Shown here: piece after piece, positions 14,914-41,644 of the stretch
Position numbering within the stretch: the stretch's first letter is position 1
Layout: each line of letters opens with the position of its first letter
Origin: Limobrevibacterium gyesilva
Lineage (GTDB): Bacteria; Pseudomonadota; Alphaproteobacteria; Acetobacterales; Acetobacteraceae
Direction: 5' to 3'
DNA length: 64,000 nt
Assembly: GCF_025989185.1 (NCBI RefSeq)
Contig: NZ_JAPDNT010000026.1
Coordinates: 1 to 64,000 of the forward strand
Notes under the pieces: generated by a model
What the model saw: the letters and a program-made list of their open reading frames with translations, nothing else
Told to the model about the DNA's origin: nothing
The model's database searches: none
Translations under genes and position numbers: made by a program

Positions 14914-16431
14914 TCAACCCGCCCGCAGCCGCGCCGCCGCCTGCCCGAGCAGGCGCCGCAGCAGCGCCAGGGCATCCAGCTCCGCCCCCGCCGGCCGGCC
15001 CGCGGCCAGCCAGCTCGCCAGCAGGACCGCGACATAGACCATGGCGCCGAGCACCACACCCAGGCCCAGGCCGGTCGCGGGCGGCCAGCCGCCGGCGCCT
15101 GCCCGATGCCAGCCCAGGCCCGTCGCGTGCAGCGCGATTGCCATCGCCGCCGTCGCCAGCAGGCTGCGCCAGGTTGCCCGCAGCAGGTCGCCGGGCCGCA
15201 GGTCGAACTGGCGGAAGGTGACGCGGGCATACAGCCCCTGCTCCACCGCCATAGCCACCGCCACCGCCACGGCAGCGCCGACCAACCCGGCCGCCTGCAC
15301 GCCCGCGGCGATCAGCACCACTCGCAGCAGCAGCGCCATGGCCTCGATGCGGAACATCCCGGCCATCAGCCCATGCACCTGGAACAGCGTGGCGCTCATG
15401 CTGCCGAGCACCGTCACCGTGCCCGCCAGCGCCAGGATCTCGATGAGCGGCGCGGTCTGCGCCCATTGCGCGCCGAAGGCCAGCGCCACCAGCGGCTCGG
15501 CCACCAGCGAGATCCCGACACCCGCCGGCAAGGTCAGCAGCGCCATGGTGCCGATGATGCGCAGATAGGTGCCGCCCGGCGTCTGCTCCACATGGCGACC
15601 GGCGGAAAACCCGGAAAAGGCGGCCCGGCACAGCGGCAGCACCAGCTCCGTCGTCGGCAGGGCGGCGATCTCGGCCCCCACCGAATAGATGCCCACCTGG
15701 GCCGGGTTCAGCATGCGTCCGATCAGGATGGTGTCGGCGCGGTTGCGCAGCAGCCCGACGCTGCTGATCGCCCAGGTCCACAGCGAATAGCCGAGCATCC
15801 CCCGCCATGCCTGCAGGGACAAACGCGGCCGGTACGGATGCATGACATAGCTGAACGCGACCCGCAGGACCCGCTGCGCCAGGATGCCCGCGATCAGCGC
15901 CCAGTAGCTGTGGAACATCGCCGCCAACGCCAGGGTCAGCACGATCCCGGCCAGCCGCGGCAGGATCCAGAGCTGGAATTCCTTGCGAAAGGCGAATTCG
16001 CGCCGGAAATCGACGATGCCGATGTTCTCGACCCCATCCAGCGCGATCACCAGCGCCAGCACCATCAGCACCTCGACCATGCGCGGCTCGGAGAAGAACG
16101 ACCCGGCCGGCCAGGCCAGGCCGAGGATCACCGCGCCGCTGACGAGGCCGCGGATCATGTTCAGCGTGAAGGCGGTGTCATAGACCTTCCGCGGCGGATC
16201 CTTCTCGCGGATCACCGCCTCCTCGATGCCGAGCCAGGAGAACGCCTCGATCGCCTGGGCGAAACTCGTTGCCAGCGCCACCAGGCCGAAATCGGCGGGC
16301 ATCAGCAGGCGCACCAGAACCAGCGTGCTGACCAGGCCGAGTGCGCGCGTCGCCAGCCGCCAGCCGATGATCCAGCCGGTGCCGGTCGCCGTCTTCAGCA
16401 ACAGCGAAGCCGGCGCCGCCTCGTCGGTCAT
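14914..16431 (-). CDS. Wzx-type oligosaccharide flippase
   Basis: A 505-residue protein with 12-14 hydrophobic helices typical of the MOP/PST flippase family (TGWIIGWRLATRALGLVSTLVLVRLL at the start, RNRADTILIGRMLNPAQVGIYSVG in the middle). It should move lipid-linked oligosaccharide across the inner membrane. The start ATG 16431 overlaps the stop of the ribbon-helix-helix partition gene as ATGA (16428-16431), so a polysaccharide gene appears co-transcribed and translationally coupled with plasmid partition genes. A second flippase lies at 56820. Confidence 0.9.
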   Translation of the reverse strand: MTDEAAPASLLLKTATGTGWIIGWRLATRALGLVSTLVLVRLLMPADFGLVALATSFAQAIEAFSWLGIEEAVIREKDPPRKVYDTAFTLNMIRGLVSGAVILGLAWPAGSFFSEPRMVEVLMVLALVIALDGVENIGIVDFRREFAFRKEFQLWILPRLAGIVLTLALAAMFHSYWALIAGILAQRVLRVAFSYVMHPYRPRLSLQAWRGMLGYSLWTWAISSVGLLRNRADTILIGRMLNPAQVGIYSVGAEIAALPTTELVLPLCRAAFSGFSAGRHVEQTPGGTYLRIIGTMALLTLPAGVGISLVAEPLVALAFGAQWAQTAPLIEILALAGTVTVLGSMSATLFQVHGLMAGMFRIEAMALLLRVVLIAAGVQAAGLVGAAVAVAVAMAVEQGLYARVTFRQFDLRPGDLLRATWRSLLATAAMAIALHATGLGWHRAGAGGWPPATGLGLGVVLGAMVYVAVLLASWLAAGRPAGAELDALALLRRLLGQAAARLRAG

Positions 16432-16712
16432 TCGCGCCGGCGCGGCGTGCGGTCCTCGAGATCGGCCGGCGCCACGGCAAGCCCGGCGGCGGCCAGAGCC
16501 CGGCACACCACCTGCTTCTGCGTCAGGCCCTCGGCCCTGGCCTGCGCGGTCAGCGCCGCCACGGTGCTGCTGCGCAGGCGCAGGTTCAGCGTGGTCGGCC
16601 GGTCCGGCGAGGCGATCTGCGCGGGCGGCAGCGATGGTGTCTGCAAGGCGGTGATGCGCAGCGCCTCCTCGGCGGACGGCCGGGCGGCGCTGCGGGGTTT
16701 GAGAATCTTCAT
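16428..16712 (-). CDS. ribbon-helix-helix partition protein (ParB-type partner of ParA)
   Basis: Ninety-four residues. The basic N-terminal tail (residues 1-38) is likely disordered and is followed by a ribbon-helix-helix segment TTLNLRLRSSTVAALTAQARAEGLTQKQVVCRALAAAGL (about 40-78, described here by its ends TTLNLRLR and VVCRALAAAGL). This layout, a small RHH protein right after a short ParA, matches type Ib partition cassettes such as ParF/ParG and delta/omega, where the RHH protein binds tandem short repeats and represses its own operon. An array of 8-bp repeats (16715-16754) sits directly in front of its start. Known relatives bind 7-8-bp periodic sites. Confidence 0.8.
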   Translation of the reverse strand: MKILKPRSAARPSAEEALRITALQTPSLPPAQIASPDRPTTLNLRLRSSTVAALTAQARAEGLTQKQVVCRALAAAGLAVAPADLEDRTPRRRE

Positions 16713-16714
16713 GC

Positions 16715-16754
16715 CACTTCTCTACGTCGTTACGTCGCCACATACCCACGTCAT
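16715..16754 (+). repeat. octad array A, in front of the RHH partition gene
   Basis: Five tandem 8-bp units at 16715, 16723, 16731, 16739 and 16747 with cores CACT, TACG, TACG, CACA and CACG. It lies between the RHH gene start (16712) and the parA stop (16751-16753), slightly overlapping the latter. Position and 8-bp period suit an operator or centromere site for the RHH protein. Confidence 0.75.
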
Positions 16755-17383
16755 CGCGGCAGCCAGCCGCGCTCGCGCAATTCCGCGAGCAGGCCCGCGA
16801 TCTCGATCACGGCCGGGCCGATCTGCGGAATGCGCCCGGAATAGGACAGCTCGCCATACGCCACGAGGTCGCTGAGCGACGCCTCTAGCCGCGGCAGGCC
16901 GGCGACCTGGATCTCGTGGGCCGCGTGCCGCGCGAGCTGCGTGCGCCGCACCTTGTTCAGCAGCACGGCCGTCGGGATCTCGCGCCGCGCCGCCCGCGCC
17001 AGCCCTTCGGCCAGCCGCACGGTCTTCTCCGCCTCGGTCACGTCGGCCTCGCCGCTGAGCGTGGGCACCAGCACCGCGTCCGCACTGGTCATGGCGACCG
17101 CCGCGGAGCGGTTGCCGAAGCCTGCGGTGTCCACGATGACGATGTCAGCCTCACCGGCCTTGCTGTCAATCAGGTACGCAAGCCGCGTCTCGTCGGATTC
17201 CGCATGGGTCTCGAAGGTCGGGCCCTCATAGGCATTGGCGGCCCAGCGGCTGAATGCCTGGGTAGGGTCGGCATCCAGCGCCACGACCTTGCGGCCCTCG
17301 GCGGCCAGCGAGCCCGCGAGCAGCATGGCGACCGTGGTCTTGCCGGGCCCGCCCTTGGAACTGGCGATCGTCAGCACGGGCAC
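16751..17383 (-). CDS. parA: ParA-family partition ATPase
   Basis: A 210-residue ParA without the N-terminal HTH extension, hence the short type Ib class (ParF-like). The deviant Walker A motif KGGPGKTT is at residues 10-17, with the signature lysine at 10; VVALDADPTQAFSRW and VIVDTAGFG supply the Walker A-prime and B regions. The start is GTG 17383 with AGAGGAG six bases upstream. It would form ATP-dependent structures on the nucleoid that position the plasmid, stimulated by the RHH protein encoded 38 bp downstream. An 8-bp repeat array (17396-17451) covers its promoter region. Confidence 0.9.
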   Translation of the reverse strand: MPVLTIASSKGGPGKTTVAMLLAGSLAAEGRKVVALDADPTQAFSRWAANAYEGPTFETHAESDETRLAYLIDSKAGEADIVIVDTAGFGNRSAAVAMTSADAVLVPTLSGEADVTEAEKTVRLAEGLARAARREIPTAVLLNKVRRTQLARHAAHEIQVAGLPRLEASLSDLVAYGELSYSGRIPQIGPAVIEIAGLLAELRERGWLPR

Positions 17384-17395
17384 GGGCGACTCCTC

Positions 17396-17451
17396 TACGG
17401 CATTACGTCGCGATGCGTATACGGCGATACGTCGTTACGTGTCCACATGTG
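17396..17451 (+). repeat. octad array B, in front of parA
   Basis: Seven tandem 8-bp units at 17396, 17404, 17412, 17420, 17428, 17436 and 17444, with cores TACG, TACG, GATG, TACG, TACG, TACG and CACA; the commonest unit is TACGTCGY. It begins 13 bp upstream of the parA GTG. It is the longest of the eight arrays and the best candidate for the primary centromere and par operator. Confidence 0.8.
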
Positions 17452-17467: not shown

Positions 17468-17590
17468 TGTCGGTAGAGTCCCCACCCTGGGCGGCTCAAA
17501 TTTCCCGCAGGACAAGACCGGTCCGGGAAAAGGCGGCAATTCTGTTTCGGAATCAGACAGATGGGCCGGCAGGTGGGGACTCTACCGACA
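17468..17590. repeat. pair of iterons in inverted orientation downstream of rep
   Basis: The 19-bp sequence at 17468-17486 (core GTCGGTAGAGTCC) recurs as a perfect reverse complement at 17572-17590. The 85-bp segment between them, which has no gene, could form a large loop. It lies between the rep stop (17602) and the par promoter region. The same core appears four more times upstream of rep, so these two copies may titrate RepA or allow handcuffing; that role is inferred from other iteron plasmids. Confidence 0.75.
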
Positions 17591-17601: not shown

Positions 17602-18543
17602 TCAGCCGCGGGCGATCTGGCGTTCGGGCACCGGCGGGCGCGACGGCAGCAGCCGCAGCCCGTCATCCTCCATCTCCACCCCGGCCTCGGGATAGACCGC
17701 CAATGCGAGCTTGAGGTTGCTGATGAAGGTCGGCTTGAACTGCCGCAGGCTCTTGAATCCGGCGCCGAATTGCTGGTGCAGCCGCGGCCAGCGGATCGCG
17801 GTCGGCTTCTGCAGCACATGCAGCCGGTAGGCGAGCCAGACATACAGGTCCAGCCCCATGGAGTTGTTCTGGATGGCCCGGATCGCCGGTTCCCACAGCG
17901 GCACGGGATGCCGGCTCAGCGCCTCGTAGAAGGACTGGCTGATCCGCACCGTCTCCACGAACATGTGCGCCTGGCGCTCGTCGTCGCCGTTCGGTTCCAG
18001 GAACAGCACACCGTCATCGACGATACGCTCGCTGCTGAACCCGGTTCCGCCGTTCGCGTTCTGGTAGAAGAAGGTCAGCTTGCAGATCGAGAGGCGCGTG
18101 GCCTGGTCGCGGACTTCGCGGATGCTCTTGCCGCCCTGCGCGATCCCCATCCGCCGCAGCCAGTCGCGCATGGACCGGCCGAGCTCCACCTCGCGCGACC
18201 GCGACCGCAGCGCCTGGGTCTGCAGATACAGCAGGATCAGCCGGGCGCGGCTGCCATAGGGAACGCCGACGAACTCCCCTTCGCTCGTGCCCGGGCGGAT
18301 CAGCCGGCCGGGTTCGATCATCAACGTCAGCCGCTCGCTTTGCCGGATCCACTCCTTGTCGGAGGGCAGCCGCTTGTGCGGCAGCGAGGCCTGGCAGAAG
18401 CCGCTATAGGTCACGCCGATCGCATCATCGTCCTCGGCCAGGATGTCGGCGGCCACGCGCACAAGGTGGCGCTCGGCCGGATCGACCTTCTTCAGCGCCT
18501 CTTCCCTGCCATGCTCGATCACAAGCCGATGAACGGTTCCCAC
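17602..18543 (-). CDS. repA: plasmid replication initiator RepA
   Basis: A 313-residue protein resembling the plasmid RepA family of alphaproteobacterial iteron plasmids (RepA_C type): YSGFCQASLPHKRLPSD, VPYGSRARLILLYLQTQA, SMRDWLRRMGIAQGGKS, MGLDLYVWLAYRLHVL. GTG 18543 is chosen as start because AGAGG stands five bases upstream. The frame stays open to GTG 18663, but that extension reads through an iteron and is arginine/serine-rich, so it is less likely. It should bind the iterons at 18.65-18.78 kb to open the adjacent AT-rich segment. The N-terminal start remains uncertain. Confidence 0.85.
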   Translation of the reverse strand: MGTVHRLVIEHGREEALKKVDPAERHLVRVAADILAEDDDAIGVTYSGFCQASLPHKRLPSDKEWIRQSERLTLMIEPGRLIRPGTSEGEFVGVPYGSRARLILLYLQTQALRSRSREVELGRSMRDWLRRMGIAQGGKSIREVRDQATRLSICKLTFFYQNANGGTGFSSERIVDDGVLFLEPNGDDERQAHMFVETVRISQSFYEALSRHPVPLWEPAIRAIQNNSMGLDLYVWLAYRLHVLQKPTAIRWPRLHQQFGAGFKSLRQFKPTFISNLKLALAVYPEAGVEMEDDGLRLLPSRPPVPERQIARG

Positions 18544-18648
18544 GCAGACCTCTTCGCTGTGAGCCGAGTTCGCCACGGACTCGGTTCGCCGTGAGCAAGC
18601 CTTGCTTCGGCGCCGTTTATACCGTCCGGCGCAGGCTTTTGTCGCCGG

Positions 18649-18810
18649 GGACTCTACCGACACAAGCTATTAGGAAGATTATTTGAATCTTCTATTAGTA
18701 TGTGTCGGTAGAGTCCTCGGGATAACCGCATTTTTCCCCGAGTCGCGTCGGTAGAGTCCCCACTTGCGTCGGCAGAGTCCTCGGGATAACCCCGCCGGCC
18801 TGTGGATAAC
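18649..18810. other. probable replication origin: iterons, AT-rich segment, DnaA box
   Basis: Four iterons with core GTCGGTAGAGTCC lie here: reverse at 18649-18661, direct at 18704-18716, 18747-18759 and 18768-18780 (one mismatch). The direct copies are spaced 43 and 21 bp, close to whole helical turns. Between the first two is a 42-bp AT-rich segment containing the inverted repeat GAAGATT/AATCTTC (18674-18692), a candidate unwinding element. A perfect DnaA box reads TGTGGATAA at 18801-18809, and GGGATAAC occurs twice. It sits directly upstream of repA, as expected for oriV. Confidence 0.8.
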
Positions 18811-20281: not shown

Positions 20282-20614
20282 ATGATGGCGGAGCTCATGA
20301 TCGAACTGGAGGCTCGCGATCCCGCGCGCAACCGCTTCCGCGCCTGGCGGATCGAGGCCGGGCGGGACCTGTTCGGAACCTGGACCACGCAGCTGCGCTT
20401 CGGCCGCATCGGCTGCCAGGGCAGGGTGCTGACGCGCGCCTTCGACAGCGAAGCCGAGGCACAGGCGTTCATCGGCGCCGGGCTGCGCCGCCGCGCCTCG
20501 GCGCCGGCCCGGATCGGCGTGCCGTATCGCTGCGTGCGCGCCACGGGTGCCGCGGACGCGTTGCTGCGCGCGGTTAACATAGTTACGAATCTACGTAACG
20601 ACGGCACTACGTAG
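20282..20614 (+). CDS. WGR-domain protein
   Basis: A 110-residue protein with a single WGR-type domain (RNRFRAWRIEAGRDLFGTWTTQLRFGRIGCQG, residues 16-47, given here by the ends RNRFRAWRIEAG and RFGRIGCQG), followed by the helix SEAEAQAFIGAGLRRRAS. Stand-alone WGR proteins are common on alphaproteobacterial plasmids; the domain binds nucleic acid in other contexts, but no function is established for these. The last twelve or so residues and the stop are encoded by an 8-bp repeat array (20576-20615), so the C-terminus may owe its sequence to the DNA site. Confidence 0.75.
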   Translation: MMAELMIELEARDPARNRFRAWRIEAGRDLFGTWTTQLRFGRIGCQGRVLTRAFDSEAEAQAFIGAGLRRRASAPARIGVPYRCVRATGAADALLRAVNIVTNLRNDGTT

Positions 20615-20615
20615 G
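20576..20615 (+). repeat. octad array C, at the 3-prime end of the WGR gene
   Basis: Five 8-bp units at 20576, 20584, 20592, 20600 and 20608 with cores AACA, TACG, TACG, GACG and TACG. The array overlaps the last codons and stop of the WGR gene and ends about 50 bp before the aroQ promoter, at the edge of the aroQ-TetR cassette. Confidence 0.7.
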
Positions 20616-24403: not shown

Positions 24404-24639
24404 TTTCCGAATTAAGCGCTTCAATCATCATAGGGAGTCCGAGCTCCCTGCGGGAGGGGCGGACGCACAACAATGCGTCAAGGCCTTTGCTCCCGGCGCA
24501 AAAGCGCAGCCGCCCATGGTCCCTCCATGGGCGGCCGAGACTGGTGTCCTGCCCCCGAAGTTCGCCGCATCTTGCGGCGGACGCAGGGGCCAGCAGGCCA
24601 CTGAAAACAAAGGACACTAGCCGTGACGATGTAACGCCG
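24404..24639. other. noncoding stretch with stacked hairpins
   Basis: No gene is seen. It contains a perfect 11-bp hairpin (24509-24519 with 24525-24535, 5-nt loop), a 7-bp hairpin CGCCGCA/TGCGGCG (24563-24579), GGGAG/CTCCC around 24433-24447, and an outer pairing GTGTCCT/AGGACAC (24544-24550 with 24611-24617). It looks like a mosaic of palindromic intergenic elements between two operons; no transposase remnant was recognised. Confidence 0.5.
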
Positions 24640-24649
24640 TCACGACGTA
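24618..24649 (-). repeat. octad array D, at the end of the ABM-monooxygenase gene
   Basis: Read on the minus strand, four units start at 24649, 24641, 24633 and 24625 with cores TACG, GACG, TACA and CACG. The first unit is identical to a unit of arrays A, B and F (TACGTCGT). It overlaps the stop of the ABM gene and lies at the boundary with the aroQ-TetR cassette. Confidence 0.65.
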
Positions 24650-25356
24650 GGGCCGTGAAGCCGCCCAGGATCGCGAGGGGTGTCCGCCGGACAGGAGAGC
24701 GGCGGATAGTATTGCGGCGCCTCGCGGCGGTCGAACATGCCGTAGTCCCGGACGATCCGGACCCGGCGGCGGCGCCCGGCAGCGGGCGAGCCGTGCCGCT
24801 CCGCCGCGTCCGCCGCCGCCGCCGCATCCCGCCAGGACGACAGCAGGAGCAGGTCGCCCGGCGTCAGGACGGCGTCGAACACGTCCCAGTCCGTCAGCCC
24901 CGCGCCGCTCGTCGGCGCCCCGAGGCTGGCGGCGATCGTCTCGGGCGGCGCGTCCACGGGCAGACCCGGCGGCTGCCTTGCCTCGACGATGCCAACCAGC
25001 TTCGCCGGGCCGACTTCGGTTTCGTCCAGGGACCACTCCCGCACGGCGTGGCCCGAAGGCGGATGGGTGTCGGCCGCCACCGCGCCGACGCGCAGATGGT
25101 AATCCCCGAACACCTCCGACCGCCCCCGCACCTGCACCTCGTGGTGCAGGGCATGCGTGCGCCAACGCACCAGCGCTTTCTCGTCGCGCCAAGTCGACAG
25201 CGAGAGCACATAGCCGGGCCGGCGGAGCGAGCGGTAGCGGATGTTGTCGATGAAGCCATCCACCCGCACCAGTTCCGGCCGCAGCAGGGCGGCGAGGCCA
25301 AGGTAGTCATCCCACCGGTCGGGCCGGGGCAGGACCTCGAAGATGACGCAGAACAT
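24640..25356 (-). CDS. tandem ABM-domain (antibiotic biosynthesis monooxygenase-like) protein
   Basis: A 238-residue protein with AGGAGA in front of ATG 25356. The first half (MFCVIFEVLPRPDRWDDYL, then FIDNIRYRSLRRPGYVLSLSTWRDEKALVRWRTHALHHEVQ, abbreviated here to its ends FIDNIRYRS and THALHHEVQ) fits a dimeric alpha-beta barrel ABM domain. The second half (GPAKLVGIVEA, then LLLLSSWRDAAAAADAAERHG) repeats the pattern more weakly. ABM proteins are small oxygenases or structural relatives with varied substrates. It follows an alpha/beta hydrolase by 19 bp in a two-gene operon, suggesting breakdown or detoxification of a small molecule, unidentified. Confidence 0.7.
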   Translation of the reverse strand: MFCVIFEVLPRPDRWDDYLGLAALLRPELVRVDGFIDNIRYRSLRRPGYVLSLSTWRDEKALVRWRTHALHHEVQVRGRSEVFGDYHLRVGAVAADTHPPSGHAVREWSLDETEVGPAKLVGIVEARQPPGLPVDAPPETIAASLGAPTSGAGLTDWDVFDAVLTPGDLLLLSSWRDAAAAADAAERHGSPAAGRRRRVRIVRDYGMFDRREAPQYYPPLSCPADTPRDPGRLHGPTS

Positions 25357-26493: not shown

Positions 26494-26533
26494 TTCATGT
26501 CGCTACGTAACATCATCGCTACGTATGGTCGTA
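26494..26533 (-). repeat. octad array E, between the hydrolase operon and ccdAB
   Basis: On the minus strand five units start at 26533, 26525, 26517, 26509 and 26501 with cores TACG, TACG, GATG, TACG and GACA; TACGTAGC occurs twice. It lies in a gene-free gap (26380-26578), 115 bp upstream of the hydrolase start and 46 bp beyond the ccdB stop. Confidence 0.7.
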
Positions 26534-26578: not shown

Positions 26579-26887
26579 TCAGACGCCAGCCAGCAGCACG
26601 TCGATGGCGCCGATCACGACCTCTCGCTGGTCGCGCAACGAGGCGATGCGAACGCCCAGGCCGGTGCGTTTGACGGCTGCGACAAGGTGGGTTGCCATCA
26701 CGACGTCCTGGCCTTCCACGTTGAACAGCGGATGCAGCCGTTCGGCTCGGCGTCCGAAAACGCGGGCGTGGACCAGCGGCACGACGACCCGCGTATCGAG
26801 GTCGTCCAGCAGGTCGGCCTGCACGTCGAGGAGAAAGGGCGCGTAGTCCCGGGAGTCGCCGGGATTCCGATGGACGTCGCACTGCAT
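26579..26887 (-). CDS. ccdB: CcdB-type gyrase-targeting toxin
   Basis: A 102-residue protein that follows the family over its whole length: MQCDVHRNPG, FLLDVQADLLDDLDTRVVVPL, LHPLFNVEGQDVVMATH, and the C-terminal VIGAIDVLLAGV corresponding to the terminal helix that contacts gyrase in F-plasmid CcdB (which ends GI). Length equals the F-plasmid protein. Its ATG overlaps the ccdA stop (TGATG at 26885-26889), so toxin translation is coupled to antitoxin. The module kills or arrests plasmid-free daughter cells. Confidence 0.9.
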   Translation of the reverse strand: MQCDVHRNPGDSRDYAPFLLDVQADLLDDLDTRVVVPLVHARVFGRRAERLHPLFNVEGQDVVMATHLVAAVKRTGLGVRIASLRDQREVVIGAIDVLLAGV

Positions 26888-27216: not shown

Positions 27217-27256
27217 TACGTCGTTACATACCTACGAACTTACGTCTTCACATGAT
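27217..27256 (+). repeat. octad array F, upstream of ccdAB and over the recombinase stop
   Basis: Five units at 27217, 27225, 27233, 27241 and 27249 with cores TACG, TACA, TACG, TACG and CACA. The last two overlap the final codons and TAA of the serine recombinase. It is the most regular copy after array B. Confidence 0.75.
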
Positions 27257-28139
27257 CCAGCATGCCCGCCTTGGCGGCCCGTGCCAGCAGATGCGCGACC
27301 GAGGAGGACGCCCAGCGCAGCGAACCGCGCGGCGTCCGCTCCCGCATCGCTTCCAGCTGGGCGGCGATGGCCCGCAGCGACAGCGTGGGGTTGGCGCGGG
27401 CGATGCCGGCCGCGATCGCCACCAGCCGGTCCGGCGGGCGGCGGCGTGGGGCAGGGATCAGCAAGGCGGCATCGGCCAGCCCCTCGGCGACGAAGCGGCG
27501 CACCGCGCGGATCAGCCGCGCCTCGCTCCAGCGTGCCCGCCCGGGATCGAGCCCACTGTTCAGGACCTGGACAACGTCGCCCCAGGGGTGGTCCGGGCGC
27601 AGGCGCCGCACCGTGGGCAGCCAGTTCTCGGCATCCGCGATCAGCCCCGCCAGCGTCGCATCCCGCCGCGCCGCCGCCACGCGGCGCAGGGCGGCGGGAT
27701 CGCGCGCCCGCAGCCCGGGATTGCCACCGATCCGGCCCCGCGCCCGCGCGGCCGCGAGCCCGGCGCGGGTACGCTCGCGGATCAGTTCCCGCTCAAACTC
27801 CGCCGCCGCCCCCAACACCTGCAGCGTGAACAGCCCCTGCGGGCTCGACGTGTCGATGGGGTTGCCGAGGGAGCGGAAATGCGCGCCGCGCGCCCGCAGG
27901 CTCTCGATCACCGCCAGCAGATGCGACAGCGAGCGGGCCAGGCGGTCGATGCGCACCACCATCAGTGTGTCGCCGCGGCCAACCCGGGCCAACGCGCGAG
28001 CAAGCTGGGCGCGCGTCCTGCTGCCGCCCGAGGCACGCTCCTCGAAGACCTCGTCACAACCGGCGGCGCGCAGGGCGTCGGTCTGGACGTGGATGGTCTG
28101 GTCCTCGGTGGACACACGCGCATAGCCAATCATCGTCAT
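27240..28139 (-). CDS. serine recombinase (resolvase/invertase family)
   Basis: About 299 residues from ATG 28139 (ATG 28133 equally possible). The resolvase domain begins MTMIGYARVSTEDQ with the catalytic serine at residue 10, then DTLMVVRIDRLARSLSHLL with the conserved arginines, and GAAAEFERELIRERTRAGLAAARARGR, the E-helix entering DNA. The C-terminal half is longer than in Tn3 resolvases and contains further helix-turn-helix-like segments. It may resolve plasmid multimers or be a remnant of a mobile element; no transposase or obvious inverted ends were found nearby. Confidence 0.88.
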   Translation of the reverse strand: MTMIGYARVSTEDQTIHVQTDALRAAGCDEVFEERASGGSRTRAQLARALARVGRGDTLMVVRIDRLARSLSHLLAVIESLRARGAHFRSLGNPIDTSSPQGLFTLQVLGAAAEFERELIRERTRAGLAAARARGRIGGNPGLRARDPAALRRVAAARRDATLAGLIADAENWLPTVRRLRPDHPWGDVVQVLNSGLDPGRARWSEARLIRAVRRFVAEGLADAALLIPAPRRRPPDRLVAIAAGIARANPTLSLRAIAAQLEAMRERTPRGSLRWASSSVAHLLARAAKAGMLDHVKT

Positions 28140-28238
28140 GTAATTGTTTTGCCAGCGATTTATGACACTGTCCAATATCCAGGATCATCAGAGGCCGCCC
28201 GTTTGAATGCGTGCCTCAATGGGGCAGCGCGGGAAAAA

Positions 28239-29517: not shown

Positions 29518-30597
29518 ATGAACCGCGAAACCTCCATCTACCTGGACCTCGTCCGGATCGCGGCCGCCAGTCTCGTCTTCCTCTCGCATGCGTCCTGGCA
29601 GCAGAACTCCGGCGGCGTCCTGTGGCAGTTGCAGGGGCACGGGCGGGAGGCCGTGGACGTCTTCTTCGTCCTGTCCGGCTTCGTCATCGGCCATGTCGTG
29701 GAGACGCGCGAGCATTCCGCCCTGACCTACACGGTGCACCGGGCGGCGCGGGTCTGGTCGGTCGCCCTGCCGGCGCTGCTGATCACCTTCGCCCTTGACC
29801 GGGCCGGCCAGTCCCTGCGGCCGGAGCTGTACCAGGAATGGTGCTGCGAAGCCCACCATGGCGGCATCTGGAGCTTCGTCGCCGGGGCGTTCTTCCTCAA
29901 CGATATCTGGACCCATCACGCCCCGCCCGGCTCGAACGTGCCTTACTGGTCGCTGGGCTACGAGGTCTGGTACTACGTTGCCTTCGGCGTCGCAGTCTTT
30001 GCGCGGCCGCCATGGCACCTGCTGGGTCCGGTGCTGGTCATGGCCGCGGTCGGGCCTGGGATCGCCGCACTGTTCCCGCTCTGGCTGCTCGGCCGGCTCT
30101 GCTATCGGCTGTGCGTGCGGCATGTCCCCGGGCCGCGTTTCGGGGCTATGCTGCTCGCGCTCGGCATCGTCGGCTTTGCGGTCTACGAGACCGAGGCGGT
30201 CCGCTACCACGAGATCTACGACCCGTTCGAACTCACGCCCACGCGCCTGCACGACTACGCCCTCGACCATCTCGTGGGCGTGCTGTTCGCGGTGCATCTG
30301 CTGGGTTTTCGCGCCCTCTCCGCGACGGTTCCGGGGATGCTGGACCGGTTGGCCGGGCCGGCGCGCTGGCTCGGGGGCGCCACGTTCACGCTCTACCTGC
30401 TGCATCTGCCGCTGATCCATGCGCTGGTCGCCGTCTCGCCCTGGCCGGTCACGTCCTGGGCCACGCGCGGCCTGGTCTTCATGGCGCCGCCGGTCATCGT
30501 GCTGGCCCTGGCGGAGGTGACCGAGCGGCGCAAGCACGCCTGGCGGGAGCGCCTGGCGGGGCTCCTGCGCCTGGCGGTCAGGGCAACGTCAGGCTGA
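29518..30597 (+). CDS. acyltransferase 3 family membrane protein
   Basis: A 359-residue integral membrane acyltransferase from ATG 29518 with about ten helices. IYLDLVRIAAASLVFLSHAS (residues 6-25) contains the conserved Arg and His, and VDVFFVLSGFVIG follows. WSLGYEVWYY is a second family mark. Such proteins O-acetylate or O-acylate polysaccharides at the membrane. It converges with the glycosyltransferase at 30589, overlapping it by 9 bp tail to tail. A second acyltransferase 3 lies at 58808. Confidence 0.85.
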   Translation: MNRETSIYLDLVRIAAASLVFLSHASWQQNSGGVLWQLQGHGREAVDVFFVLSGFVIGHVVETREHSALTYTVHRAARVWSVALPALLITFALDRAGQSLRPELYQEWCCEAHHGGIWSFVAGAFFLNDIWTHHAPPGSNVPYWSLGYEVWYYVAFGVAVFARPPWHLLGPVLVMAAVGPGIAALFPLWLLGRLCYRLCVRHVPGPRFGAMLLALGIVGFAVYETEAVRYHEIYDPFELTPTRLHDYALDHLVGVLFAVHLLGFRALSATVPGMLDRLAGPARWLGGATFTLYLLHLPLIHALVAVSPWPVTSWATRGLVFMAPPVIVLALAEVTERRKHAWRERLAGLLRLAVRATSG

Positions 30598-31767
30598 CCG
30601 CCCCAGCACGCGGCGGAACAAAGCGAGCTGGCCGGCGCTGGTCTCGTCCCAACCGAACCGCTCCGCATAGGCGCGGGTGGCCGCGCGATCGGGCAGGGCA
30701 GCGAACAGCCGCCGCACCCCGGCGGCGATGCCGGCGGGGGTGTTGCTCTCGACGACCAGCCCGGCCTCCGGCGCCCGCACGACTTCGGGGTTGCCGGGGA
30801 TGTTGCTGGCGACCACTGGGGTGCCGCAGGCCATGGATTCCAGCAGCACGTTCGCCCAGCCCTCCCGGCTCGACGCCAGCACCATCGCATCCGCCGCCCC
30901 GTAGAATAGCGGCAGCCGCGCATGCGGCTGGGCGCCGAGGAGGCGGACGCGGGGGGAGAGGCCGAGTTTCGCAATTTGCGATGCGAGCTTTTCCCGATCC
31001 GGCCCTTCCCCGACGATGATCAGGTCGAAGTCCGGCAGTTCGGTCATGGCCGCGATGGTGCGGTCGTGGCCCTTGCGTTCGATCAGCAGGCCGACCGAGA
31101 TCAGGGTCGGGCGGGTCAGGCCCAGGGCAGCGCGGGCGGCGGCGCGGTCGACGGGGCGGAAGGTTGACGTATCCACGCCGTTACGTAACGTCGTAACCTT
31201 GTCCGGGGCGGCGCCCAGCGCGATCATGCGGTCGCACAGGGCCGAACTGACGCCGATCAGGCCGTCGGCACGCGCCAGCGCGGTGCGAATGAGCCGCCTG
31301 GGTATGGCGTGGCCGGGAAGCTGGGTCACGTCCGAGCCGCGCGCGGTGATGACCACCGGCTTGCCGAAATGCCGGCCCAGCCACACCGCGGCGACGCCGT
31401 CGGGGTAGGCGTAATGGGCGTCGATCACGTCGAAGCGGAGCCCGTCCGCGACCAGCCGGCGCAGGGCGCGCCGGCTGGCGAGGTAGAGCAGCAGCGGGGC
31501 CGCGGACATGCCGAGCTTCGGGATCACGCCGTAGCGGGGATGATGGATCGTCAGCCCATGGCGCGCCTCCTGGGCCGGCACCCGGGCGAACCGGCTCCAG
31601 GCGCCGAAGCGGGCGCCCGTGAACGGGAACCAGGGAGTTGGCGCCATCACCACGCTCGTGGCCTCGCCGGTCGCCACCAGGTGGCGCAGGCGGTTCTCGA
31701 CGAAGATCCCGTGATTGGGCCGCTCGCTGTCGGGAAACAGCGTGGTGAAGGTCAGCAGCCGGATCAT
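30589..31767 (-). CDS. family 4 glycosyltransferase
   Basis: A 392-residue GT-B enzyme from ATG 31767, overlapping the prsT stop as ATGA. It opens MIRLLTFTTLFPDSERPNHG and includes DVIDAHYAYPDGVAAVWLG, ITARGSDVTQLPG, TLRNGVDTSTFRPVD, LISVGLLIERKGHD, and donor motif LASSREGWANVLLESMACGTPVVAS with two glutamates. It is linked to the XrtA regulator genes by operon structure. An 8-bp repeat array (31164-31195) lies inside the gene over codons for VTTLRNGVDT, using TTA, CGT, TCA and GTT, which are unusual in this GC-rich DNA. Confidence 0.9.
   Translation of the reverse strand: MIRLLTFTTLFPDSERPNHGIFVENRLRHLVATGEATSVVMAPTPWFPFTGARFGAWSRFARVPAQEARHGLTIHHPRYGVIPKLGMSAAPLLLYLASRRALRRLVADGLRFDVIDAHYAYPDGVAAVWLGRHFGKPVVITARGSDVTQLPGHAIPRRLIRTALARADGLIGVSSALCDRMIALGAAPDKVTTLRNGVDTSTFRPVDRAAARAALGLTRPTLISVGLLIERKGHDRTIAAMTELPDFDLIIVGEGPDREKLASQIAKLGLSPRVRLLGAQPHARLPLFYGAADAMVLASSREGWANVLLESMACGTPVVASNIPGNPEVVRAPEAGLVVESNTPAGIAAGVRRLFAALPDRAATRAYAERFGWDETSAGQLALFRRVLGRSA
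31164..31195 (-). repeat. octad array G, inside a glycosyltransferase gene
   Basis: On the minus strand four units start at 31195, 31187, 31179 and 31171 with cores TACG, TACG, GGCG and TACG. The site is within the coding sequence of the conserved NGVD motif and uses low-GC synonymous codons, suggesting selection on the DNA sequence itself. Confidence 0.65.
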
Positions 31768-34610: not shown

Positions 34611-36023
<1,413 letters not shown>

Positions 36024-36616
36024 GGTGCTTCCTGTCGAGGCGGGCGCGAAGTTCGGATTGCTCGCGGCAGCGTGATCGGCGTCATGACGTGCTTCTGCCA
36101 CGTCCTGCGCCGGATCGCACGATTTCGTGGGGGCTGACTGCACCCGGCCGGCCGGATGCGGCGGCACATGATGGAATAGGGCGCCGGCTGGACGACGTTA
36201 CGCACCGATGTCTTTACATGCATACGTCAACTGCAACCCGCCTTGCCTCGCCGTTTCCCCGCGGCCGGGACCGCCAACGTCGCGCGGTCGAAATCTTTTC
36301 GGAGAGCGGCGAACATACAAGAAGCCCGCTTCCAGACCAATCCCACGCCCGCTCCGGGCGGGCGCGGAAACCGGTACGGGACTGCGCGGAAGAATTTCAT
36401 GCCGAATGAGCACCAAGCCCGGCCGACGAGCCTCGGTGCGTGGCGACACCCGATCTGGCCGAGAAAATCACATGATGTCAGCGCGTACTCGGCGTACGCC
36501 CGAGTGCAATTCTGCTGTCAGTGTGTTGCGCGCCCGCAGGGCCGGCGGACGAGATGCGATTGCGCTCCGGTCCGTCCCGCTTAAAGTGAATTCGGCCTCC
36601 GTCCTACGGCATGCCC
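36024..36616. other. 593-bp gene-free stretch upstream of prsR
   Basis: No credible gene is seen on either strand; short open frames here are arginine-rich shadows. It holds the prsR promoter region, octad array H (36191-36230), short local dyads such as GCCCGCTCCGGGCGGGC near 36350 and GTACTCGGCGTACGCCCGAGT near 36485, and somewhat more AT than its surroundings around 36200-36500. A regulatory RNA cannot be excluded. Confidence 0.4.
36191..36230 (+). repeat. octad array H, upstream of prsR
   Basis: Five units at 36191, 36199, 36207, 36215 and 36223 with cores GACG, TACG, GATG, TACA and TACG. It lies 168 bp upstream of the prsR start and is the last array before the long polysaccharide operon. 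Confidence 0.7.
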
Positions 36617-41572: not shown

Positions 41573-41644
41573 AGGCGTGTAGCTCAGTGGCAGAGCGCTG
41601 TCATTACATGGCAGAGGTTGGGGGTTCGATTCCTTCCGCGCCTA
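41573..41644 (+). tRNA. tRNA-Val-like gene, anticodon TAC
   Basis: A 72-nt cloverleaf. Acceptor arms AGGCGTG and CGCGCCT pair over 7 bp with one G-T; D arm GCTC/GAGC with a loop containing GG; anticodon stem CTGTC/GGCAG around the 7-nt loop ATTACAT, giving anticodon TAC after the invariant T33; T arm GGGGG/CCTTC with loop TTCGATT. The discriminator base is A and no CCA is encoded. Several G-T pairs make it weaker than a housekeeping tRNA, so a divergent or decaying gene is possible. It lies 86 bp upstream of the export operon. Confidence 0.75.

Follow-up and report, generated by a model that had tools for sequence, protein, structure and literature searches.

Why does a glycosyltransferase gene on a plasmid of Limobrevibacterium gyesilva spell out part of a conserved protein motif as a run of four 8-bp repeats, using several codons that are scarce in the neighboring genes? 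We have addressed this question in a window of 64,000 bases (the whole stretch of DNA that was analysed), corresponding to bases 1-64000 of the 64,106-base contig C19 in a genome totalling 5.37 Mb.

Results

The plasmid and its partition locus

The two ends of the contig share 123 bases; the replicon is thus circular, a plasmid of about 63,983 bp. Its cargo includes many polysaccharide-synthesis genes, a CcdB homologue (26579-26884, with the start inferred from the Pfam match) and a serine resolvase, and a tRNA-Val gene (anticodon TAC) is found at 41573-41644. The replication initiator gene repA (17602..18663, minus strand; RepA_C match at 2.1e-24) encodes a protein 47-53% identical to its best relatives among the matches listed, which are plasmid RepA proteins of Azospirillum, Komagataeibacter and Roseomonas. 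Repeats of GTGTCGGTAGAGTCC flank repA at 17470-17590 and 18650-18780; they are probable replication iterons, and similar repeats surround the RepA gene of a related contig (L224, 7880-9130).

The parA gene (16751..17383, minus strand) encodes a Walker-type ATPase of 210 residues, which starts with MPVLTIASSKGGPGKTT and contains the motif KGGPGKTT but no N-terminal DNA-binding domain or helix-turn-helix (HTH). Its Pfam matches are VirC1, AAA_31 and CbiA, and its top NCBIfam match is ParA_partition (2.6e-32), with 112 bits, under that model's cut-off of 180. Directly downstream and in tandem, parB (16428..16712, minus strand) encodes a putative octad-binding protein of 94 residues, referred to here as ParB1, with weak matches to ribbon-helix-helix (RHH) proteins. 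A ParA of about 200 residues with a Walker motif and without an N-terminal HTH, and a short-repeat centromere beside parA (arrays A and B, described below) are features expected of type Ib ParABS systems, which combine a small ParA with an RHH ParB. A repABC or HTH-ParB system is not indicated, since ParB1 has only 94 residues and no ParBc match in Pfam at E 1, and since the initiator is of the RepA_C type.

In ParB1 a pair of helices is predicted at residues 48-61 and 65-76, with the segment TTLNLRLR in front of it. The single-sequence structure model is of low confidence (mean pLDDT 64), and the structures it matches best, at weak scores (best Foldseek E 0.57), are those of RHH proteins (antitoxin Rv0298, CopG and Arc); the best RHH profile match is also weak (E 0.046), and in Pfam ParB1 has no RHH match at E 1. 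On these predictions the C-terminus of ParB1 is likely to adopt the RHH fold.

Eight octad arrays between 16.7 and 36.2 kb

The plasmid carries eight clusters of 8-bp units led by TACG, between 16.7 and 36.2 kb, each comprising four to seven octads. Array A (16723..16754, plus strand; four octads) lies at the parA-parB junction and reaches four bases into the 3' end of parA, while array B (17396..17451, plus strand; seven octads) is directly upstream of parA and is the probable main centromere and operator. Three arrays are found at the 3' ends of genes: array C (20576..20615, plus strand; about five octads) in a WGR-domain gene (20282-20614, plus strand), array F (24618..24657, minus strand; four to five octads) in an ABM-domain gene (24640-25356, minus strand) and array E (27217..27256, plus strand; five octads) in the serine resolvase gene (27240-28175, minus strand). 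Array D (26494..26533, minus strand; about five octads) separates ccdB from an alpha/beta hydrolase gene, so that ccdB is located between arrays D and E, and array H (36199..36230, plus strand; four octads) is upstream of an NtrC-type regulator gene (34611-36167, minus strand).

Array G (31164..31195, minus strand) consists of the four octads TACGACGT TACGTAAC GGCGTGGA TACGTCAA and lies within the codons for VTTLRNGVDTS, specifying part of KVTTLRNGVDTST, in a GT4-family glycosyltransferase (GT) of 392 residues (30589..31767, minus strand; Pfam Glycos_transf_1 at 2.4e-37). The named relatives of this GT among the best matches listed belong to the Acetobacteraceae or the Rhodospirillales. Array G alone is embedded well inside a coding sequence, where it occupies codons 190-201 of 392. 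Three of its four units, read from 31195 down to 31164, keep TACG in 8-bp phase, in agreement with the preliminary description of this DNA; the third octad departs from the consensus.

A first position matrix was built from 26 octads of five arrays, with arrays G, F and H outside the training set. The three untrained arrays scored 28.9 (G), 28.9 (F, at 24.6 kb) and 27.1 (H, at 36.2 kb), against a ceiling of 19.2 in 60 simulated sequences (first-order Markov, as long as the window) searched on both strands, where a score of 16 is reached about 0.05 times per window. The held-out score of array G thus bears out the earlier claim that an octad array is written into the GT codons. With a 24-base pattern and at most two mismatches, 10 matches were obtained in the genome, all of them on the plasmid between 16.7 and 31.2 kb, compared with 2 for the reversed control.

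The arrays might instead be operators for ParB or a relative of it, with array G acting as a roadblock or operator in a polysaccharide operon and having no role in partition. RHH ParBs do also repress transcription, the omega sites of pSM19035 overlap promoters according to the available part of the source (PMC9499535), and arrays A, B, D and H are in or near the upstream regions of genes. Against this, arrays C, E and F are at the 3' ends of unrelated genes, array G sits in mid-gene rather than at a promoter, and the GT array follows par-bearing genomes rather than the presence of the GT (see below); we consider the operator explanation unlikely.

In three related plasmids, namely the one described here and those of G020 and G282 (L056, 7295; L216, 8875), an array comes immediately after the resolvase gene, at its 3' end. 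This suggests that the position is conserved or that partition and the resolution of multimers are connected.

Codon usage of array G

In 17 genes of the window (7,467 codons), TTA accounts for one of 851 leucine codons, and this sole TTA is the one in array G. Other codons of the array are also scarce in these genes: GTT is used for 9 of 562 valines (1.6%), CGT for 23 of 637 arginines (3.6%) and TCA for 7 of 357 serines (2.0%). The earlier proposal that the array is made of rare codons therefore holds for TTA, GTT, TCA and CGT and fails for GAT, which encodes 86 of 378 aspartates (23%). The same proposal called for a codon count along the GT gene itself, and this count agrees with it: TTA occurs at one of 45 leucines, with no other instance in the gene, and TCA at two of 19 serines, that is, once outside the array.

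When the whole GT gene was redrawn with synonymous codons according to its own codon usage, none of 20,000 redraws reached 28.0, the score of array G under a second matrix (seven arrays, G excluded), and the best redraw scored 23.4. The 17 genes and the seven training arrays of this matrix were picked by hand, and array G was outside the training of both matrices. Applied to the other six homologues with an array (described below), this test gave one success in 5,000 redraws for G282 and none in 5,000 for each of the other five. Each of the seven array-bearing GT genes has exactly one TTA among its 37-50 leucine codons, and the leucine of the motif is encoded by TTA in all seven, versus one of the 104 other GTs. 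A scan of excess synonymous identity along the GT alignment does not single out the array, whose window ranks fourth of 380, as common codons dominate this measure.

Neither chance nor codon drift withstands the tests made with Markov sequences, redraws and control genes. It is strongly supported by these comparisons that the codons of array G reflect selection at the DNA level, as the preliminary description had suggested; for the function behind that selection, we infer ParB loading for partition. Taken alone, the codon evidence is compatible both with partition and with regulation by the same protein.

Array-bearing homologues of the glycosyltransferase

A GT homologue (E 1e-80) is present in 136 of 397 genomes of the family. 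At the codons matching array G, 112 GT loci were scored: eight reach 21.1-23.9, and 104 score 9.1 or less. The eight high-scoring loci represent six contigs, two of which were counted twice; the 112 loci include some contigs two times, as each of the two collections contributed them. A GT-specific pattern allowing up to two mismatches occurs once in each of seven of the 397 genomes (G000, which is the genome described here, G020, G282, G315, G083, G075 and G332), and its reversed control gave no match among the genomes listed; this pattern represents one spelling, and arrays spelled otherwise would escape the count. G075 is the same genome as G473 and G332 the same as G472, with identical contig numbers and positions. 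The GT alignment retained 111 sequences (7 with the array and 104 controls), after omission of homologues that did not span residues 10 to 370.

The carriers include three pairs (G020/G315, G282/G083 and G332/G075) with 83-89% nucleotide identity. Between the three carrier lineages, the agreement of synonymous codons is just 42-64%, and the residues around the array also vary by lineage, with V or L before it and T, A or V inside it.

A second small ParB family

Some relatives encode another small ParB, ParB2 (95-165 residues in close members), which has a conserved start (PDLSxFPIPRKG) and a conserved end (RRxIQxxxxEALDEW) and no detectable sequence similarity to ParB1. It is found together with parA in G083:C61 (L228, 9623-11082) and G075:C31 (L227, 3973-5177), and in both cases octads are present at the parA-ParB2 junction, overlapping parA codons. 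This family was defined post hoc, after the array carriers had been examined. In PLSDB, neither ParB1 (E 0.01) nor ParB2 (E 0.001) found a match, while a ParB1 relative used as query (the ParB of G376) retrieved four records.

Covariation of the array with par systems

Relatives of ParB1 (E 1e-6 or better) were detected in at least 29 of the 397 genomes and ParB2 in at least 10; up to 13 and 11 first-look candidates per genome, respectively, were scored in these searches, and weak ParB genes may escape them. All seven array carriers encode one or the other. ParB1 with at least 73% identity is found in four genomes (G000, G020, G282 and G315, our own included), and all four are array carriers; the other three carriers (G083, G075 and G332) have ParB2 and no ParB1 match. 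The GT co-occurs with ParB1 or ParB2 in at least 18 of the 136 GT-bearing genomes (10 with ParB1 and 8 with ParB2), including all seven carriers, as compiled by intersecting the lists by hand. The hypergeometric probability of this overlap is 2.2e-7; this value takes no account of phylogeny and is optimistic, as the ParB2 set counted in it was defined post hoc. It had been predicted that homologues from replicons lacking this par system would be free of the rare codons; the prediction is borne out in that the array pattern occurs in none of the 118 GT-bearing genomes in which neither ParB was matched at E 1e-6, but it needs amendment for the three carriers which have ParB2 in place of ParB1.

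Physical linkage was judged by a shared contig, a criterion that fragmentation of the assemblies weakens in most cases. Where GT and ParB are on one contig, the array is present in four of five cases (G000, G020, G282 and G075). The exception, a GT found on G332:C258 (193.8 kb), shares only 50% identity with the query and has neither the LRNG motif nor an array (best score -2.9); since it lacks the motif, it leaves the odds of the explanation presented below unchanged. In G083, G315 and G332 (array-bearing GT on C380), GT and par are on separate contigs and yet the array is present. Eleven par-bearing genomes have the GT on another contig and no array, including assemblies with few contigs (G446 with four and G087 with three). 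In G359, octads accompany ParB2 and a sister GT is present, but no GT array.

Octads at the par loci of relatives

Sites scoring at least 14 were found within about 1.5 kb of the ParB gene at 16 of 28 ParB1 loci (a count which includes the window's own locus, part of the matrix training) and at 10 of 11 ParB2 loci, while shuffled copies gave 0.25 and 0.00, respectively. The window-trained matrix found no site at the other 12 ParB1 loci, several of which are near-identical to each other, or at one ParB2 locus. In seven relatives with a ParB, a strict array pattern gave 4 matches and its reversed control 26, and the pattern thus does not fit the octads of those relatives. With a looser version (two mismatches), none of 12 genomes gave more matches than the reversed control did; it provides leads only, among them the ParB2 locus of G083 and the site at 184360 of G332:C258 described below. 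Dense octad arrays are seen beside ParB1 relatives in G397 (L256, 450-710), where they are near-continuous, and in G376 (L250, 339-670).

The contig of G020 has six sites scoring at least 15, and that of G282, which is circular (141-bp end overlap), has five; the GT array is among them in both. On G332:C258 there are three such sites versus 0.25 expected, two of them adjoining the ParB2 gene. The third (184360-184391, L283; score 18.4) is isolated, about 167 kb from the ParB2 gene, and may be a real satellite. It lies downstream of a TPR gene in a polysaccharide cluster.

On the complete plasmid pKB16680_2 of a cultured strain, Kozakia baliensis NBRC 16680, 12 sites scoring 22.1-33.7 are found in the 1.2 kb before parA, and a thirteenth match (15.3) is located elsewhere in the 8.2 kb scanned. 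The 12 sites belong to a tandem block with a period of about 179 bp (L272, 2069-3202), in which octad clusters alternate on both strands. In the PLSDB table, no gene is given for the ParB relative of this plasmid. For the ParB relative of Gluconacetobacter diazotrophicus, no octad sites were found; these two species account for the two of four PLSDB records that were inspected.

The octads could also serve another plasmid protein which travels with the par genes, for example a resolvase accessory factor or a compaction protein. The arrays at the resolvase 3' end in our plasmid, G020 and G282 speak for this possibility, which is nevertheless quite improbable given that octads adjoin the ParB gene in 26 of the 39 ParB1 and ParB2 loci and are found directly upstream of parA in Kozakia.

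Origin of the array in the glycosyltransferase gene

With the array columns masked, we built a quick tree from the 7 carriers plus 33 close neighbors, chosen by hand among the 104 controls; in it the carriers occupy three places. Forcing them into a single clade costs 114 log-likelihood units and is rejected (AU p 5.7e-5), and the site has thus been gained repeatedly or has moved. The masked tree needs four changes, of which the starred branches force at least three; in such counts gains are not separable from losses. An unmasked FastTree of all 111 GTs also separates the carriers, with low support around the L. gyesilva sequence.

Among about 2,270 positions ranked for the ease of building four octads by synonymous changes, the motif holds rank 1 or 2 in all seven carriers, and rank 1-7 in ten other GTs examined. 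Given this top rank, repeated use of the spot needs no special function of the spot itself. The array in the GT has probably evolved more than once among these relatives.

Two other histories are to be weighed against this one. According to the first, the codons are shared by descent or by chance within one GT lineage, with no selection on the DNA. The 83-89% nucleotide identity within carrier pairs speaks for such descent; the low synonymous agreement between lineages, the rejection of a single clade and the 0 of 20,000 redraws make it extremely improbable. In its simple single-lineage form, this reading is already refuted by the tree and redraw results. The second history involves a single origin followed by transfer of the GT segment between plasmids. 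It overlaps with our main explanation, differing from it as to origin only, for the ParB site would still be selected. In its favor, the array-bearing replicons are related to each other, being polysaccharide plasmids or plasmid-like contigs, and could recombine; against it, the flanking codons and residues differ by lineage, and we regard such transfer as rather unlikely.

Discussion

Based on the evidence presented here, array G is quite probably a satellite centromere unit of a partition system made of a ParA and a probable RHH ParB, lodged within the coding sequence of a passenger gene and built mostly through synonymous codons. We infer that ParB binds this array, that the array participates in partition and that it confers a selective advantage. 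ParB dimers would bind contiguous octads side by side. As ParBs of the RHH type reportedly do not spread, ParB, and through it ParA, would be loaded independently at every cluster of about four contiguous octads; the clusters of four to seven octads seen here fit such loading units. A low-copy plasmid would benefit from additional clusters near par, and selection would retain those arising at the cheapest positions. The GT4 motif V-T-x-L-R-N-G-V-D-T would be such a position, as it places near-TACG tetramers 8 bp apart in advance, and a few silent changes would finish the array; this presetting would account for the reuse of the same spot in several GT lineages. A wider scheme, to which we give somewhat less than even chances, is that of a scattered modular centromere made up of four-octad units for ParB loading. 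Passenger genes retained by the plasmid would be silently recoded, at their one or two cheapest places, to the point of bearing such a unit, and the dissimilar ParB1 and ParB2, having either converged on the octad or preserved it, would drive the same recoding.

A close comparison is offered by the delta/omega system of pSM19035, in which an RHH ParB, as ParB1 probably is, is combined with contiguous short-repeat arrays at several places of the plasmid (six parS), according to the part of the source available (PMC9499535). The same text reports that this ParB does not spread and that at least four contiguous heptads are required for full activation of ParA (PMC9499535). The pSM19035 repeats are 7-bp WATCACW heptads overlapping promoters, whereas the period here is 8 bp, the units are led by TACG and one array lies deep in a coding sequence; ParB1 and its octads are thus distinct from the omega system. 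Furthermore, delta and omega are described as separate transcription units in the accessible part of PMC5016525, in contrast to the parA-parB tandem found here.

Kozakia pKB16680_2 resembles our plasmid in organization, with a ParA, an adjacent RepA, octad clusters upstream of parA and a ParB relative sharing 67.5% identity with the query, the ParB of G376. Its clusters, as far as the 8.2 kb scanned show, form the tandem block and are not dispersed in genes, unlike those of our plasmid. The parH box of plasmid TP228 is ACTC. The ParF/ParG/parH system of that plasmid pairs a ParA with an RHH ParB, and has degenerate tetramer boxes with spacers, as far as the available text of PMC7308502 goes. 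It differs in its box sequence, in its AT-rich spacers and in that parH is described as continuous (PMC5016525, in the part available).

Dispersed parS sites, some of them within open reading frames, are also known from repABC replicons, such as pAMI4 of Paracoccus and others (PMC9040568, available portion). The same portion proposes that the extra parS are positively selected even in coding sequences, whether they arise de novo or are imported (PMC9040568). Those sites are 16-bp palindromes, whereas here we have octad arrays and a small ParB, together with codon, covariation and phylogenetic tests. Among the titles and abstract openings listed from the open-licence literature, we found no report of such octad arrays or of RHH parS inside a coding sequence. 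We read array G as a sequence-tested case of selection for a parS within a coding sequence, in a different class of partition system. It would thus represent a natural experiment for the hypothesis published for repABC replicons, extending it to small-ParB (RHH-type) systems, and it makes testable how a working partition complex is formed from a ParB that does not spread. It would also be a clear case in which a DNA site, and not translation, accounts for codon usage, the motif of the host protein fixing where the site can form.
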